A stretch of DNA of 6,556 nt from Bacteroidales bacterium. Lineage in GTDB: Bacteria > Bacteroidota > Bacteroidia > Bacteroidales > P3. Below are positions 304 to 6,364 of this stretch, piece by piece. The stretch's first letter is position 1, and each line of letters begins with the position of its first letter. The translations under genes were made by a program, and so were the position numbers. The stretch is from NCBI GenBank assembly GCA_017647065.1, contig JAGCLI010000257.1, forward strand, positions 1 through 6,556. The letters run 5' to 3'. Under the pieces are notes generated by a model. The model saw only the letters and a program-made list of their open reading frames with translations. It had not been told where the DNA came from and did no database searches.

Positions 304-705
304 TTATTTTACTTCTGCAAAAACTTCAATTATTTCATCATTTATTACAATATCTGATAGCGAGAGGAATTTTAGAACTTTTTTTGCTTGTTCTATTTCT
401 TCTAAATCAACTTTTATCGTTTTATTCTCTATTTCAATAACTCCTTTTGGTAGGTTGGAAATTAGTTTTGGCAATAGTTTTTCCACAGCAATTTCCATAA
501 GAGGTTTACAACTATAAGTAAGTTCTATTTTATTAGAATATATCGCTGTTATTATCAAAGATATTTCTATGTTTGGTAAAAACATCATTCCCGAAGAGTA
601 CTTTACGTTTAAAGTATTTTCATTTACCTTGCTCAAAGACAAACTTACCTTTGTCAAATCTTTTACTTTATTTTCTATTTCCTTATATGTAATTGATAAC
701 TTCAT
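304..705 (-). CDS. Small alpha/beta protein of unknown function, last gene of AAA operon
   Basis: This 133-residue protein is not recognised. It has no signal peptide, transmembrane segment or cysteine motif. The pattern suggests a short N-terminal helix (about 5-20), then alternating beta strands (about 20-65), a helix near 68-85 (PLMEIAVEKLLPKLI), two strands around 90-100, a helix near 101-114, and a terminal strand pair ending in EVFAEVK. This order loosely recalls small TULIP-like lipid-binding folds such as DUF1439/DUF2993, but that is only a pattern impression. The ATG at 703-705 lies 19 bases after the stop of the AAA+ ATPase gene and no promoter is seen in between, so co-transcription is likely. 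A role as a cytosolic partner of the ATPase would fit, but nothing in the sequence proves it. Confidence 0.8.
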   Translation of the reverse strand: MKLSITYKEIENKVKDLTKVSLSLSKVNENTLNVKYSSGMMFLPNIEISLIITAIYSNKIELTYSCKPLMEIAVEKLLPKLISNLPKGVIEIENKTIKVDLEEIEQAKKVLKFLSLSDIVINDEIIEVFAEVK

Positions 706-724
706 AGATTAAAAACGATAAGTT

Positions 725-2014
725 CTACTTTTTATTTCTTTTTCTTGATTTTTGATTTCCTTTTTGCTTTGACATTTCGCTTTCTTCCATTGCCTTTTCT
801 TTCAGTTTTGTAGAAATTTTTAGCTTTAAGCGTTCATTTTCCTCTGCTTTAAGTTTTTCTATTTCTTCTTTCTTTGCAGTCATTGCATCTTTTAGGTCAT
901 CGATAACAAAAATTGCATCTTTTCCATATTCTCCTGCTTTTTTTAACAACATTGAAAGTATTGCATTTTTAATCTCTCTACCAGAAAAGCCATCTATTAT
1001 TTCGCTTATCTCTAAGATTTCTTCATCTGTGAAAGGTTTTTCTATTGGTAAAAATGGAGGAAGGGAGACTTTTATTATTTCTGCCCTTGCTTCTTTATTT
1101 GGTAAGTCGAGTTTTATATTTGCTAATATACGAGAATTAAACGCTTTATCGAAATTAGTTACCAAATTCGTAGCAAACAAAACCACTCCTTCAAAATCTT
1201 CAAGCAAAATCAGCATTTGACTACGCAAAGAGTTCAATGCTTGTTCTGCACCTTGACTAACATTTTCTATTCTCTTGCCAAGAAAAGAATCTGCTTCATC
1301 AAAAAACATCACAGCGTCTAATTCCTTTGCTGTTTCAAAAGCTTTTTTCAAATTTTTCGGTGCATCGCCAACATATTTTGATTCTATTTCGGAATAATTC
1401 AATGCCAATAATGGTTTTGATAAATGTTTTGCTATTGCGTGAGCACACATTGTTTTTCCCGTACCAGGAGGGCCGAAGAAATTCAACACACTTCTTGGCT
1501 TGCTATCTACTTTCTCAAATCCCCATACCTTATATATCAACTCCTTGTTTTCAATTACATTTAAGGCATCAAAGATTGTTTTCTTAATCTCTTTATCCAT
1601 TATTATTTGCTCAAAATCATATCGAGGATTTATAGGCAAAAATGTAGGCAAACCATCGTTTGAATTAGAATTTTCAGCCTTTGTCTCGGAGTTTTCTTGA
1701 ACTTTGTTTTCTTTTTTATTGAAAGTCAAATTCAGAAATAAAGAACAATCGGAAAGTTCTATGCTCGCCTTGCTATCTAAATAACTTTCCGCAGAATTTA
1801 ATAAAGCAAAACTACCATCTAAATCAAAACTTGCATTATGATCTATGTTAATAAACTCTCCGTTACGCTCTTTTACTTCCCATTTTGGAAGAATTGTAAG
1901 ATTAGGATAATTGTTTATTTTTCCTTGAAGGAAAGTTATCAACCCTCCCTCTAAGTTTTCAATATACAAAACTTGTTGTTCCGATAGTGTTTCTTTATTT
2001 ATAAGATATTTCAT
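725..2014 (-). CDS. Classical AAA+ ATPase with novel N-terminal domain
   Basis: This 429-residue protein is an ATP-driven remodelling or unfolding enzyme of the classical AAA clade (FtsH/Cdc48/Vps4-like). Residues 1-105 form an N-terminal domain I do not recognise. Residues 106-121 are a polar Asn/Glu/Ser linker. The AAA module follows, with Walker A GPPGTGKT at 181-188, a substrate-threading pore-loop motif KYVG at 213-216, Walker B MFFDEAD at 236-242, sensor 1 in ATN at 281-283, and the sensor-2-like helix SGREIKN at 344-350. The second-region-of-homology segment DKAFNSRILANI keeps one arginine (Arg295). The first arginine-finger position of p97/Vps4 appears to be Asn293. Residues 380-429 are a highly charged coiled-coil-like tail ending in a basic cluster. 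No protease domain or transmembrane helix is present, so it should act in the cytosol as a hexamer. Four small genes with a shared C-terminal module precede it with 10-15 base gaps and are the obvious candidate substrates or adaptors. Confidence 0.93.
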   Translation of the reverse strand: MKYLINKETLSEQQVLYIENLEGGLITFLQGKINNYPNLTILPKWEVKERNGEFINIDHNASFDLDGSFALLNSAESYLDSKASIELSDCSLFLNLTFNKKENKVQENSETKAENSNSNDGLPTFLPINPRYDFEQIIMDKEIKKTIFDALNVIENKELIYKVWGFEKVDSKPRSVLNFFGPPGTGKTMCAHAIAKHLSKPLLALNYSEIESKYVGDAPKNLKKAFETAKELDAVMFFDEADSFLGKRIENVSQGAEQALNSLRSQMLILLEDFEGVVLFATNLVTNFDKAFNSRILANIKLDLPNKEARAEIIKVSLPPFLPIEKPFTDEEILEISEIIDGFSGREIKNAILSMLLKKAGEYGKDAIFVIDDLKDAMTAKKEEIEKLKAEENERLKLKISTKLKEKAMEESEMSKQKGNQKSRKRNKK

Positions 2015-2024
2015 AATGAATTGT

Positions 2025-2312
2025 TTAATAATTTATAGGAATTATTTGTCCTACTCTTAAAGAAGAATCTACTCCCTCGTCAGATTCAATGGGCATTTCT
2101 GCTATTTCATTTTCATTTACATCATATATACCAACTTTAACAGCATCTCGTTTTTTTTCTTTTATTTTTGCATAGAATGCTTCTTTGGATTTTCTTGCGA
2201 CTTCTTCTGCAATTTGTTTTGCTGTTATCTTTTTATATATTTTTACACCAGCATAAACCGTTAAACCTATTGCTGCGGCTCCTAAAAGGAGTTTAAAAAT
2301 TGATCCCCACAT
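2025..2312 (-). CDS. Small single-pass membrane protein, divergent member of the operon's paralogue family
   Basis: The 95-residue protein has one hydrophobic helix at about 5-23 followed by KIYKK. By the positive-inside rule this places the rest in the cytosol. A charged helix (about 30-55) leads to a short module, VKVGIYD at 58-64, then NENEIAE and IESDEG, and the protein ends IIPINY. This matches the spacing of GVYD, EEIV and IEADELD in the two neighbouring proteins upstream, so I consider it a shortened, diverged relative. It lies ten bases before the AAA+ ATPase gene and ten bases after the previous gene. A role as a membrane anchor or substrate that the ATPase recognises by its C terminus is inferred only. 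The protein is not a named family that I recognise. Confidence 0.8.
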   Translation of the reverse strand: MWGSIFKLLLGAAAIGLTVYAGVKIYKKITAKQIAEEVARKSKEAFYAKIKEKKRDAVKVGIYDVNENEIAEMPIESDEGVDSSLRVGQIIPINY

Positions 2313-2322
2313 AATTTTATTT

Positions 2323-2733
2323 TTAATTTAATACTATTAAATCTTCATTTCCTAAAACTTCGCGTGTCTTTGCGTCTAATTCATCGGCTTCTATAAGTTT
2401 TGCATGAACGATTTCCTCTTTTTCTTCATCGTAAACGCCGATAAATAAAGATTCTTTTTTTGTTGGCTGAATTGACAACACATCTTTCATTGCTGATGCT
2501 TTTGCTACAAATGGCACGTGTTTGTTTTTGTCTAATTTTAAGGTTTTAAACCAATTTACAACTTCTAAAAAATTTAAGCAACCTTCAATTGAAACAGTTT
2601 CAAATTCTATTTTCCACTCTTTCTTAAAGGCTTTTTTAATTGATTCTAAAAGTGTCGGTTTTTTCTTAAAGACTAATAAGGCTATTACTGCAACTACAAC
2701 AACTGCAATTCCTATTATTAAATATGTATTCAT
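2323..2733 (-). CDS. Membrane-anchored paralogue with transmembrane helix and GVYDE module
   Basis: The protein has 136 residues. A strongly hydrophobic helix at about 4-22 (rich in Val/Ile) is followed by FKKK, predicting a single-pass protein with a cytosolic C-terminal part. Residues 27-60 are charged and probably helical. Residues 63-136 align without gaps to residues 41-114 of the neighbouring 114-aa protein, with roughly 60% identity by eye. Shared segments include LKLDKN, HVPFVA, GVYDE, IEAD and KTREVLG, and the protein ends EDLIVLN. The DNA is also similar over this stretch, indicating a tandem duplication with an exchanged N terminus. It lies third in the operon with gaps of 10-13 bases on either side. 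Its function is unknown. Confidence 0.85.
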   Translation of the reverse strand: MNTYLIIGIAVVVVAVIALLVFKKKPTLLESIKKAFKKEWKIEFETVSIEGCLNFLEVVNWFKTLKLDKNKHVPFVAKASAMKDVLSIQPTKKESLFIGVYDEEKEEIVHAKLIEADELDAKTREVLGNEDLIVLN

Positions 2734-2746
2734 TTCTTTTCTTTTT

Positions 2747-3091
2747 TTAACTTAATACCACTAAATCCTCATCACCTAAAACTTCACGTGTTTTTGGATC
2801 TAAGGCATCTGCTTCAATGAATCTGTTTTCTACAATTTCGTCTGTTGCTTCATCATAAACACCTTCAAAAATTCCTACGTTCTTTGTAGGTGCTTTTTGT
2901 AACATTTCTTTAAATTGATTGCCGTTTGCAACAAATGGTACGTGTCTATTTTTATCTAATTTTAAACTTTTAAACCAATTTACACAATGTGCAAGAAAGT
3001 TAAATATACCATTGATAACGTATTGAAATACTTTTTTTATCCAACTTATAGCTTGCTTAATTAATTCTACTATTCCTGAAATTAGTCCCAT
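2747..3091 (-). CDS. Paralogue with amphipathic N terminus and GVYDE module
   Basis: The protein has 114 residues. The first 40 are hydrophobic but interrupted by lysines (LIKQAISWIKKVFQYVINGIF). This looks more like a membrane-binding amphipathic helix or hairpin than a clean transmembrane segment. Residues 41-114 form the module shared with the 136-aa neighbour: LKLDKN, HVPFVA, then GVYDE at 77-81, IEAD at 92-95, KTREVLG at 100-106 and a terminal EDLVVLS. No catalytic motif is apparent. The start follows an A/T-rich leader typical of the phylum. It begins 14 bases after the stop of the first operon gene. It is possibly a peripheral membrane partner of the AAA+ ATPase encoded downstream, which is inference from context. 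Confidence 0.85.
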   Translation of the reverse strand: MGLISGIVELIKQAISWIKKVFQYVINGIFNFLAHCVNWFKSLKLDKNRHVPFVANGNQFKEMLQKAPTKNVGIFEGVYDEATDEIVENRFIEADALDPKTREVLGDEDLVVLS

Positions 3092-3105
3092 AATTTTATT
3101 GTTTT

Positions 3106-3600
3106 TTAGGTTAATATTACTAAATCTGATTCAACAAATAAATTCAATACATCTTGTTCTAATTGTTTGGCTTTAATGATTACATAATGATTGTTTTCAT
3201 CTGCTAACAATTCTCTTCCTTTTCCATAAGAAAGATAAACAAAGGCTACTTCTTTTTCATTGATTACACCTTGTTGTTTAAAGGCTGCAACCATATTTGC
3301 TCCTTTTACAATATGATTTTTTGCATATTGAAGCATTTCTCTTGAAGTCAAGGTATCTACTTCATAAACTGTCATATTATCTTTTGAAGTTACGCTGATT
3401 TTCTTTAAGAAATCTGCCTTCGCTTGTTGATAACACTCCATCATTTCTTGCTTTGCCTTATCCCATTCCGGCATTACTTCATCTTTGATTCTTTGTTTCA
3501 ATTCTTCTGTATCAACATTAATTTTTTCTTTTGCTACGTCCCACCAATCTTTTAATTGATATAGCAAATCATCTAATTGTTCGCTGTTAAACTTTGCCAT
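3106..3600 (-). CDS. Soluble helical protein with related C-terminal module, first gene of AAA operon
   Basis: The protein has 164 residues and no hydrophobic segment. Residues 5-67 are long charged, probably coiled-coil or amphipathic helices, rich in Lys/Glu and containing several Trp (DWWDVAKEK, PEWDKAKQEMM). Residues 77-164 form a mixed module: VYEVDTL, a helix REMLQYAKNHIV, strand AFVYLSYG, strand VIIKAKQL, and a terminal ESDLVILT. The end matches EDLVVLS and EDLIVLN of the next two proteins, and the preceding strand-strand-helix order is also similar. I therefore treat it as the most distant member of the same family. It lies just downstream of the promoter at 3646-3676 and begins the operon. 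The N-terminal helices faintly recall ESCRT-III/PspA-type membrane scaffolds, but the helix is too short to claim this. Confidence 0.85.
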   Translation of the reverse strand: MAKFNSEQLDDLLYQLKDWWDVAKEKINVDTEELKQRIKDEVMPEWDKAKQEMMECYQQAKADFLKKISVTSKDNMTVYEVDTLTSREMLQYAKNHIVKGANMVAAFKQQGVINEKEVAFVYLSYGKGRELLADENNHYVIIKAKQLEQDVLNLFVESDLVILT

Positions 3601-3645: not shown

Positions 3646-3676
3646 CAAAAGTACTATCTTTGCTTATAATCTCAAT
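3646..3676 (-). promoter_or_regulatory. Promoter of the six-gene AAA operon
   Basis: On the minus strand ATTG (3673-3676) lies 19 bases upstream of TACTTTTG (3646-3653). The -7 element is a full consensus match and the -33 element matches three of four bases. Transcription would start near 3639, giving an untranslated leader of about 40 bases before the ATG at 3598-3600. The other genes of the operon have no comparable element in their short gaps. Confidence 0.7.
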
Positions 3677-3702: not shown

Positions 3703-3767
3703 GTTGCAAAACGGCGATTTTTATCTGACAATAGGGTACAAAAAAATCGTGAACTTTTTCTTATTCT

Positions 3768-3885
3768 AAGTGTGAGGTCTTGGAACTACCTAATCCGTCA
3801 AATAAGTAAAGCTCACGATATTACACGTGAGCGTTTACTGCCTTACTTTTAACGGATTGCATGAAATGTTCCAAGTTTCACACCT
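3768..3885 (-). ncRNA. Candidate 6S-like regulatory RNA (long interrupted hairpin)
   Basis: About 118 bases fold into one rod. The outer stem pairs 3770-3775 with 3878-3883 and 3779-3786 with 3868-3875. It opens into an asymmetric bubble of 5 and 9 bases (3787-3791 / 3859-3867). A 7-bp stem follows (3792-3798 / 3852-3858), then a second internal loop, then an apical stem 3805-3817 / 3826-3839 with an 8-base loop. This shape and length resemble 6S RNA, including the Bacteroidetes 6S-Flavo class, which mimics an open promoter and binds RNA polymerase. The minus strand is chosen because an exact consensus promoter lies upstream at 3976-4006 and a run of seven U follows at 3746-3740. No ORF covers it. 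The structure alone does not fix the strand or prove the family. Confidence 0.5.
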
Positions 3886-3975
3886 ATAAAGTACAAGCAA
3901 AAACGCCTTTTATCTATCTTTAATTTCTATTTTCTTTGTTCTATATTTTTATCTCTTTGTTTTATTTTCCAAAAG

Positions 3976-4644: not shown

Positions 4645-5268
4645 TTAATATTTTTCTATGAATTGATGAATCAAGTCTTTGTGATATTGTAGCTCATACA
4701 TTGATGCAGAGGGGTGAGTGATAGGAAGAAGGGCTATTGTCTTGTTTCCAATTGTATAACTCCACACTTCGCTACTTTCTCCTAAGTATTTTCCTTGCGA
4801 AATTTGTAAGTCAGCAAGTTGTTTGCCTTGTTGAGGAAGGTGATTGTATAATCGCTTGCCCCAAACGATGATAAGGTCGGGTTGATATTGTGAAAGGACT
4901 TCAAAAAATGCTTGTTCAGAGTTTTTAAATTGCTCGGCAGTCGGTGCAATTCTTGCTCCGCTGATTGCAGTTTGCACATAGTTGTAGAAAATCACGTGTT
5001 GCCAAAAGTCTTTCTTTGTTTCTTCATTGAATTGCTCTTCTCCTACAACTGATTTTGCAAATTTTGTGTAGGTATTCTTATATCCTTCGTGTTCACTTAA
5101 AGGATTGAGCAAATCTTCTATAACTTTGATTGTTATATCCTCTGTTGCTTCTGTTTCAGGGTTAGCACAATAGTGGCTTTCTCCTAATATCATTAGCTTT
5201 TTGCCTTGAAGAATTCCTTTTTCGTAGTTTTCTCCTACCCAAGGCTTGAATTTCACATTGCTATTCAT
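4645..5268 (-). CDS. Uracil-DNA glycosylase superfamily-like protein
   Basis: This 207-residue cytosolic protein has the layout of the uracil-DNA glycosylase fold. A first strand and active-site-type loop reads LMILGESHY at 25-33. An aromatic segment FYNYVQ lies at 94-99. A central strand PDLIIVWG runs 130-137. The late motif ITHPSAS at 183-189 sits where UDG families place their HPS/NPS loop. Known members excise uracil or related bases from DNA, but the catalytic Asp/Asn of classical families is not obvious in the first motif (Glu30-Ser-His here). Substrate and even activity are therefore uncertain. The gene lies 70 bases after a divergent relative of the same fold and four bases before a zinc-ribbon gene. 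It may have its own promoter at 5289-5296. Confidence 0.8.
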   Translation of the reverse strand: MNSNVKFKPWVGENYEKGILQGKKLMILGESHYCANPETEATEDITIKVIEDLLNPLSEHEGYKNTYTKFAKSVVGEEQFNEETKKDFWQHVIFYNYVQTAISGARIAPTAEQFKNSEQAFFEVLSQYQPDLIIVWGKRLYNHLPQQGKQLADLQISQGKYLGESSEVWSYTIGNKTIALLPITHPSASMYELQYHKDLIHQFIEKY

Positions 5269-5338: not shown

Positions 5339-6364
5339 CTAATTTGTTGCAAAAATATCTTTATCTAATTCGGCTATTTTACCTTGGTTTTCTTCTGTGT
5401 TGTTGTATTTATGCATTGTTCGCAAGGTCTTAACCTTTGTGCCGTCTTGTTTGTATTTTGAAATAATTTCATCTAATTGTTTCCAATCGTTGAAATCGTA
5501 TAGTTGTTTTATTTGATTTATTATATAGCCTATTTCTTTTCCTAAGATGTTAGAGCTAATCACTAATTCTCCATTGTCAAATTGCAGATAGCCTCTTTTC
5601 ACTGCGTTGAAAAGTACTTGACTAAGCGATGCTACTTTCTTTTTTCTTCCGTATGCAGAGGGGATTATTTGCTTTTGTGGAAATTTTATTTGTAGATAAT
5701 TATCTATATCTTTAAGTTCTACGTTATTTATGGAGTAATTGTAGGAGTAGAGATAGATTCTTAATGAAGGGTTATTGTTAGGAAAATTCTCTTTTTTTAA
5801 TCCTGGAAATTTTTGCAGATTTTTGTCTATTACTTCTCCTATGTGCTTTGTCCAAACATAGATTAATTGAGGTTTTAATTCTTCTAAGATTTCTAAAAAG
5901 GCTTTTGTTGCATTTTTATTAGTCTTTTCAATGTCTATTTCTTCGGGAAACAAATCGGAAGGGCAATAACATTGAAAGAAATTAGTAAAAGCAACGCTTT
6001 CCCAAAAGTCATATTTTTGTTGAGATGTGATTCCATCTTGTAGCTTTGTCATATCGTGAGTAAATACGCTATATGCAGGATAGCGAGCTTCGTCTTCGCA
6101 ATAGGAGTTTATTTCTATTATATTGCTATTGTGCAAACAAAGTTGGTCTTCTGCTTTTTCGTAAAATGGAGCGTCTTTATATTTTGGGCATTTATAGTCC
6201 ATTTCTTTTACTGTATCGACATCGCAACACAGGTCTTTGAATGGACAATTTTCATAGCAGATATGATAGGCTCCTACTACAAGTGTGCGTATTCCGTTAA
6301 AGCCTTTGTGATATTTTTCACCAATGCGGGGTACAAAAAAATAATTTCTTATTTGTTTTTTCAC
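5339..6364 (-). CDS. Divergent UDG-fold protein with cysteine-rich insert and extra C-terminal domain
   Basis: The 341-residue protein aligns over its first half with the 207-aa neighbour. PRIGEKYHKG matches PWVGENYEKG, LVVGAYHIC (28-36) matches MILGESHYC, YDFWESVAFTNFFQ (118-131) matches KDFWQHVIFYNYVQ, and AFLEILEELKPQLIYVW (155-171) matches AFFEVLSQYQPDLIIVW. It differs in three ways. It has a cysteine-rich insert (Cys36, 40, 46, 47, 59, 76, 89) that could hold zinc or an Fe-S cluster. It has no recognisable HPS loop. It carries about 110 extra C-terminal residues, with basic GRKKK at 239-243 and probable helices. Catalysis is therefore doubtful and a binding role is possible. The start is GTG at 6362-6364, chosen because the homology begins within the first ten residues and the next Met is at 55. 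No promoter is seen in the few bases before the terminator upstream. Confidence 0.82.
   Translation of the reverse strand: MKKQIRNYFFVPRIGEKYHKGFNGIRTLVVGAYHICYENCPFKDLCCDVDTVKEMDYKCPKYKDAPFYEKAEDQLCLHNSNIIEINSYCEDEARYPAYSVFTHDMTKLQDGITSQQKYDFWESVAFTNFFQCYCPSDLFPEEIDIEKTNKNATKAFLEILEELKPQLIYVWTKHIGEVIDKNLQKFPGLKKENFPNNNPSLRIYLYSYNYSINNVELKDIDNYLQIKFPQKQIIPSAYGRKKKVASLSQVLFNAVKRGYLQFDNGELVISSNILGKEIGYIINQIKQLYDFNDWKQLDEIISKYKQDGTKVKTLRTMHKYNNTEENQGKIAELDKDIFATN

Follow-up and report, generated by a model that had tools for sequence, protein, structure and literature searches.

What kind of machine is encoded by a Bacteroidales operon in which four small proteins precede a classical AAA+ ATPase and one further protein follows it? 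The question is raised by a 6,556-nucleotide stretch of DNA (the window), which is one complete contig (G000:C277, 1–6556) of the draft genome G000 of a Bacteroidales bacterium. It carries six minus-strand open reading frames (ORFs) between positions 304 and 3600, all of them where the original prediction had placed them, with intergenic gaps, calculated from the ORF coordinates, of 14, 13, 10, 10 and 19 bases. We give an even chance to the answer that this is a conserved operon whose ATPase would dock onto related C-terminal domains of its small neighbours and pull at them, dismantling or rearranging assemblies likely formed at the inner face of the membrane.

The full order of 164-, 114-, 136- and 95-amino-acid (aa) types followed by the ATPase is present in four genomes from three families: G000 itself and G833, G716 and G548, in each of which the 164-aa type stands first. 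Because the same types recur in the same order in the latter three, whose ATPases are 47, 47 and 51% identical to that of the window (G548 over 337 aa), the gene set is more than a coincidence. Profiles built from the window proteins and their close homologues (window-only profiles) recovered the 164 type (1.2e-26), 114 type (1.7e-33), 136 type (2.8e-20) and 95 type (1.6e-15) in G833. Two further copies, in G004 and at locus L109, are truncated where the contig or locus stops, leaving the 136 type, 95 type and ATPase visible; the 95-type protein of G004 is 250 aa long and its domain is seemingly repeated when inspected by eye. Counting ATPases at E <= 1e-35, we found the gene in two of six listed genus members, six of 190 family genomes and six of 393 order genomes. 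Small partners lay beside it in all six genomes of the order survey (in G789 only via profiles containing its own proteins), while the family survey gave clear partners in G000, G004, G833 and G017, a weak hit in G852 and none in G008. Beyond the order, related cassettes with soluble and anchored members occur in Clostridia (L023 and L024, both with 95-type members) and on a Planktothrix plasmid (L102).

The original prediction had expected homologues of the ATPase and of the small proteins to be found together in other genomes, and they are. The window-only profiles were run on the ORFs of 154 AAA-bearing loci, 17 others having been excluded beforehand (the hairpin-repeat loci, together with duplicates of the window or of loci for which a longer stretch was substituted). 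At E <= 1 they returned 21 rows; the window accounts for four, and L003, L195, L196, L109, L102, L190 and L189 for the other 17. Every row is on the same strand as the AAA gene and within 1.7 kb of it. These hits fall in eight of the 11 loci with an AAA match of at least 360 bits, or seven of the 10 other than the window (the exceptions being L023, L024 and L191), and there were none beside the 143 loci with an AAA match below 360 bits. The lowest-ranking two, at E 0.0048 and 0.026, come from Planktothrix and adjoin a stronger one (4.3e-4). The conserved order and the specificity of these profiles together rule out a chance operon.

Sequence comparison shows what the partners have in common: the 114- and 136-aa proteins share a domain reaching the C-terminus, and profile comparison points to the same domain in the 164-aa protein and to a related hairpin in the 95-aa protein. 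None of 2000 shuffled sequences matched as well as the 114- and 136-aa proteins match each other; for the 95- and 136-aa proteins the count was one of 2000 at full length and none of 2000 over the last 50 residues. Within an 18-row alignment of the 136/114 family, conservation is 0.57–0.65 in the C-terminal domain compared to 0.39–0.47 in the anchor part. The AlphaFold2 model of the 136-aa protein (mean predicted local distance difference test score (pLDDT) 79.7 over the whole model, predicted template modelling score (pTM) 0.72) places the domain at residues 45–136, with the order strand-helix-strand-strand-strand-helix-strand and ten-residue blocks averaging 81–94 from residue 41 onwards; the anchor before it is modelled at low confidence. 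Pfam offers no fitting family (among 68 members of the domain family the best E was 0.0027), and fold searches of the PDB with it gave nothing firm, from which novelty of the fold does not follow.

A hydrophobic triplet no more than two residues from the C-terminus, a pattern defined after the tails had been inspected, is present in 134 of 138 partner homologues (the best 120 of 126 matches plus 18 of 19), compared to none of the best 120 AAA homologues and 105 of 2255 ORFs of at least 150 aa, the latter called mechanically and many of them not genes. The 18 are the homologues of the 164-aa protein, P0241–P0258; the one record of 139 that was excluded, P0259, is a 129-aa sequence identical to the window protein over its first 28 residues and divergent thereafter, and is a chimera from assembly or recombination.

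Hydropathy agrees with the division of the small proteins into one soluble, one amphipathic and two with a hydrophobic segment that the original prediction had made. The 164-aa protein is soluble, with no hydrophobic anchor (Kyte–Doolittle hydropathy (KD) -0.51), the 114-aa protein is amphipathic (hydrophobic moment, muH, 0.65), and the 136- and 95-aa proteins have N-terminal hydrophobic segments (KD 3.22 at residue 4, and 1.87). All four stay below the cut-offs of the Pfam and NCBIfam models, and none has a PHROG match better than E 0.081; where names are displayed in the sources, their homologues are called hypothetical or uncharacterised, save one of the 164 type named as an insulinase-like peptidase. 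A phage tail or tape-measure gene was considered for the 114-aa protein and rejected, its PHROG matches being weak (E 0.12 or worse). The 133-aa product of the sixth gene has a counterpart in G004 (39.5% identity over 129 aa) and a 130-aa ORF at the same place in G833 (E 0.14); searching nine other cassette loci with tblastn yielded no more than a pair of short fragments, both in L109 (E 0.19 and 0.98). A family likeness between the ATPase N-terminal region, the partner domain and the 133-aa protein was also rejected (four pairs, hhalign P 0.11–0.55).

The fifth gene encodes a classical AAA protein with the KYVG pore loop, as had been claimed: PF00004 matches at 97.3 bits against a cut-off of 21.2 (E 1.3e-27), and the motif occupies residues 213–216. 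In an alignment of 52 sequences (A9) the Walker A residues G181, P183, G184, T185, G186 and K187 are invariant; GPPGTGKT, FFDEAD and the sensor-1 ATN are invariant or present in at least 90% of rows; and in the pore loop G216 is invariant and K213, Y214 and V215 are each found in at least 90%. Across this and a second alignment of 13 sequences, the protein retains Walker A, Walker B, the sensor-1 asparagine and one arginine-finger candidate. No peptidase family is among its Pfam matches, no Pfam family matched residues 1–120, and it ends in a charged segment (KSRKRNKK). No membrane anchor is evident, because the most hydrophobic 19-residue stretch (KD 1.59, residue 267) sits inside the AAA module. 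By sequence its relatives of solved structure are VCP-like/CDC48, AFG2, Rix7 and Vps4, and its best PHROG is phrog_3757 (E 9.8e-49), of no known function.

A large protein search with the ATPase gave 2897 matches among 7998 scored proteins; the best 120 are all at least 58% identical, and the close homologues P0050 and P0054 are labelled by their sources as proteins of Bacteroidales metagenome-assembled genomes. Viral contigs gave nothing with a single query; with an alignment as query 80 loci were kept, among which L109 was the sole close relative (49%). Across the phylum 14 of 395 genomes pass the ATPase search, 13 besides that of the window, and nine of these 13 belong to family f54. Ten partnerless phylum loci have a different ATPase N-terminus, which in nine of the ten contains a short cysteine-histidine segment (by eye: L222–L228, L230 and L231, and similarly L022 and L025, none with partner hits); it is least certain in L224 and L226, where the called ORF begins further upstream.

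How might the parts work together? The ATPase would form a hexamer and contact the end domains, and that soluble and anchored carriers share this domain beside one ATPase clade suggests that it serves as the common handle. The C-terminal domains would lie on the cytoplasmic side, because positive residues come after the hydrophobic segments, and the anchors would place the ATPase at the membrane, where its use of ATP would rearrange, by assembly or disassembly, whatever is held together by the handles. The last strand is modelled as folded, which suits docking through a folded domain better than capture of a flexible tail. Like the original prediction, we infer for the small proteins a role as substrates or adaptors at the inner face of the membrane. 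That interpretation gains partial support from the co-occurrence in other genomes; it had overlooked the related C-terminal domains reaching the C-terminus, the greater variability of the anchor, and the conflict- or stress-type neighbours of related cassettes, of which there are none in the window.

Those neighbours are varied. At L102 a protein combining HSP70 and TPR (822–2921) ends in the partner domain: over its last 98 residues it has 53% identity with the nearby 125-aa AAA partner, encoded two genes further on (E 2.4e-32); against the other four partners pairwise E values run from 3.7e-5 to 0.03. The G017 cassette is accompanied by two M48 peptidases, SIR2 (2.7e-9), a second AAA protein and a DUF1232 protein below cut-off. 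TerB adjoins the G037 cassette (5e-9, 36.9 bits, above the Pfam cut-off), and the AAA protein of G789 has a TerB-like C-terminus at 23.8 bits against a cut-off of 24.4; the AAA protein of G716 has no TerB match at E <= 0.01. G789 also has DUF1232 and GTPase neighbours (the latter MMR_HSR1 1.7e-10, with Dynamin_N just under cut-off), G716 has a DUF1232 neighbour, and WYL adjoins L196 and L023. PADLOC matched three of ten neighbour proteins (HerA-like at L102, WYL at L196 and, weakly, the HSP70-TPR protein). Both the patchy presence of the cassette and the variation among its neighbours hint at a role in stress or phage conflict, in which the neighbours would be cargo or effectors and the small proteins a constant platform.

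Also beside these cassettes, the product of L023:1726–2880, 384 aa long, has a GHH nuclease domain (PF15636, 3.3e-14) followed by a hydrophobic C-terminal part. The protein of L024:1619–3022 shares that part (38% identity over 182 aa) but has a different N-terminus, and the pair looks like a polymorphic effector. Look-alike 73-aa proteins lie downstream of the AAA gene at L195:5996–6217 and L196:7616–7837, that of L196 being a DUF6140 protein (3.3e-17).

Several observations weigh against the docking model and its extension to conflict. PADLOC gave nothing on seven of the ten neighbour proteins, and nothing at E <= 1 on the small proteins, and the window ORFs scanned include no TerB, nuclease or known defence gene. 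Membership of the 164-aa protein in the domain family rests on hhalign, because full-length shuffling shows no relationship (against the 136-aa protein 0.21 and against the 114-aa protein 0.27; for its last 50 residues 0.0115 and 0.0255); the hhalign probabilities are themselves low, at 34% for its C-terminal part against the 136 family (P 4.2e-4) and 18% in a second comparison (P 1.3e-3), and likewise 9% for the match of the 95-aa family in the hairpin (P 0.0037). The modelled folding of the last strand leaves a simple pull on a floppy tail unsupported. The Planktothrix AAA sequence, which lies outside A9, has PLLG at the pore-loop site and no pore aromatic, and the HSP70-TPR protein was matched by a profile with a 10-sequence seed (2.6e-8) and missed by one of 73 rows.

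The distribution has weak points of the same kind. The 95-type label in Clostridia and G789 comes from an alignment that includes those sequences, G789 (locus L197) was matched solely by profiles holding its own proteins, and at G017 a window-only profile hits a 92-aa protein alone, the other small proteins having been assigned by eye from their tails. At L221 (G852) a pair of small proteins with hydrophobic segments yields one weak hit (3.8e-4), three small genes at L103 (a Synechococcus plasmid) yield no profile hit, and neither does L191 (G008) in spite of its 365-bit AAA match. Wider profiles place partners at 10 of the 11 strong AAA loci (L023 and L024 needed these profiles), a figure that is partly circular because the profiles contain sequences of many of those loci. 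The 143 weaker loci comprise 138 distinct AAA sequences, and extend at least 1.7 kb upstream in 117 cases and less in 26. Searched across the phylum, the small-protein profile found the window only (one of 395 genomes), and AAA loci at E <= 1e-35 from other classes (10 of 13 examined) gave no partner profile hit; because these other-class relatives lack such hits, the partners go with one ATPase clade only.

What else might such a gene set do? A broader form of the docking model is possible, and we hold it tentatively: one docking domain, borne on soluble, amphipathic, transmembrane (TM) or HSP70-TPR carriers, would plug each of these into the same ATPase, a fixed core would hold the ATPase under the inner membrane, and exchangeable neighbours (GHH nuclease-TM, SIR2, HSP70-TPR) would act as effectors, giving a membrane-surface immune or stress machine of Bacteroidota, Clostridia and cyanobacteria. 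The amphipathic and TM proteins might instead be toxins that damage the membrane, kept dispersed by the ATPase until a phage or stress signal brings death or growth arrest. The patchy presence counted above in genus, family and order is consistent with this, as are the TerB, WYL, SIR2 and GHH nuclease genes beside related cassettes and the weak likeness of residues 1–20 of the 114-aa protein to phenol-soluble modulin models (E 0.0013, below cut-off). We nevertheless think it unlikely: the small proteins are kept at L023, where the GHH nuclease is a candidate effector, as a platform predicts, and in the 136/114 family it is the C-terminal domain and not the anchor that is better conserved.

The small proteins might alternatively be adaptors for degradation that bring clients, membrane or soluble, to the ATPase for it to feed to a separate host protease. 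This would suit an ATPase that has no peptidase domain of its own and could draw on the two M48 peptidase genes near the G017 cassette, but M48 occurs at that one locus only among the neighbour proteins scanned with Pfam, and we consider this explanation improbable. Least probable in our judgement is polymerisation of the small proteins on the membrane with recycling of the polymer by the ATPase, as Vps4 does with ESCRT-III. In its favour are the several related partners with differing membrane anchors, their conserved C-termini and the single ATPase; the six proteins, however, have no MIT, Snf7 or PspA match, and the modelled domain is alpha/beta rather than the helical ESCRT-III fold. The Vps4 parallel drawn by the original prediction goes no further than analogy: at E <= 1 none of the proteins matches MIT or ESCRT-III, and the partner domain is modelled as alpha/beta.

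Among named defence families the nearest to the window ATPase is IetAS (PADLOC IetA, E 1.9e-31; NCBIfam IteA, 96 bits), although the score lies far below the IteA cut-off of 510. IetAS has a subtilisin-like partner; a Pfam scan of nine window ORFs, including all six operon genes, found no S8 peptidase, and the cassette has four small partners instead. Like Cdv and ESCRT-III systems, it combines a classical AAA+ ATPase with membrane-acting partners in an operon, but its ATPase scores 81 bits against a CdvC cut-off of 650, the six proteins give no MIT, Snf7 or PspA Pfam match at E <= 1, and its partners are small with a C-terminal domain predicted to be alpha/beta. According to one report, VPS4-like ATPases have been transferred to bacteria, with snf7 replaced by a gene for a protein with TPR and six TM segments (PMC11237479). 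FtsH shares the AAA module and probably the inner-membrane setting; the window ATPase differs in lacking a metalloprotease domain (FtsH_fam, 59 bits against a cut-off of 600) and any evident membrane anchor of its own. TerB is described in two reports as a component of Shango and Bunzi (PMC10250203, PMC10952713), and among the neighbours scanned it was found at the G037 and G789 loci only (beside the cassette in the former and, just below cut-off, at the AAA C-terminus in the latter); the window ORFs scanned have no TerB match, and the helicase partner of Shango was not seen. We found no description of the cassette in the literature covered, which did not extend to subscription papers and preprints. 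The class of machine, an AAA+ ATPase with cognate partners, is known, and no record was found of the partner domain or of the layout.

Table 1. Positions of the operon genes and associated features in the window
Feature	Position	Strand	Basis
Gene 1, 164 aa, soluble helical partner; predicted C-terminal domain ~3109–3324	3106..3600	-	ORF, hydropathy, homologues
Gene 2, 114 aa, amphipathic partner; C-terminal domain ~2750–3028	2747..3091	-	ORF, muH, shuffle test
Gene 3, 136 aa, N-terminal hydrophobic anchor; C-terminal domain ~2326–2601	2323..2733	-	ORF, hydropathy, AlphaFold2
Gene 4, 95 aa, N-terminal hydrophobic anchor; predicted related hairpin ~2028–2171	2025..2312	-	ORF, hydropathy, shuffles
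Gene 5, 429 aa, classical AAA+ ATPase	725..2014	-	PF00004 E 1.3e-27; invariant catalytic positions
Gene 6, 133 aa, accessory protein	304..705	-	ORF; homologue in G004
Walker A GPPGTGKT, ATPase residues 181–188	1451..1474	-	Sequence; invariance in alignment A9
Pore-loop KYVG, ATPase residues 213–216	1367..1378	-	Sequence; conservation in A9
Promoter-like TTG-N19-TACTTTTG	3646..3675	-	By eye

Upstream of the operon, TTG-N19-TACTTTTG at 3675–3646 on the minus strand is, by eye, a candidate promoter of Bacteroidetes type. A scan for E. coli-type promoters found eight sites against a chance mean of 18.4, none of them on the minus strand within 500 bases upstream of 3600, and a search of Rfam gave no match. 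Further upstream, positions 3765–3895 hold an imperfect palindrome of about 120 bases (folding z -6.55), which has six more matches elsewhere in the draft genome at 75–85% identity, one of just 64 bases; it belongs to a family of repeated hairpins, which may be a MITE-like element (miniature inverted-repeat transposable element). The minus-strand ORFs at 4645–5268 and 5339–6364 encode adjacent proteins whose N-termini look alike by eye, the former with a weak uracil-DNA glycosylase match (E 2.1e-4, below cut-off) and the latter with no Pfam match.

Two other arrangements were seen around related AAA genes. At L027, L029, L105, L110 and L229 a related AAA gene is accompanied by genes for a protein of about 410–480 aa, with an amphipathic-looking start, and one of 530–715 aa, with an N-terminal hydrophobic segment and a long coiled-coil look (both by eye); L229 also has a TerB-like ORF nearby (by eye), and this cassette is possibly a separate defence element. 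At L104:4478–5801 (a Lactobacillus paragasseri plasmid) and L026:5390–6816 (Fusibacter), a protein of 142–154 aa, annotated with a TipAS domain in L104, directly precedes a related AAA gene.

Should the docking model be correct, the operon would represent a bacterial AAA+ machine that takes its specificity from interchangeable partners, alike in one C-terminal domain and different in their membrane seating. Bacteria would then have a counterpart to the way in which p97 or Vps4 use adaptors, built on an apparently unrelated domain, and the genes adjoining relatives of the operon could lead to new effectors of stress or of phage defence.

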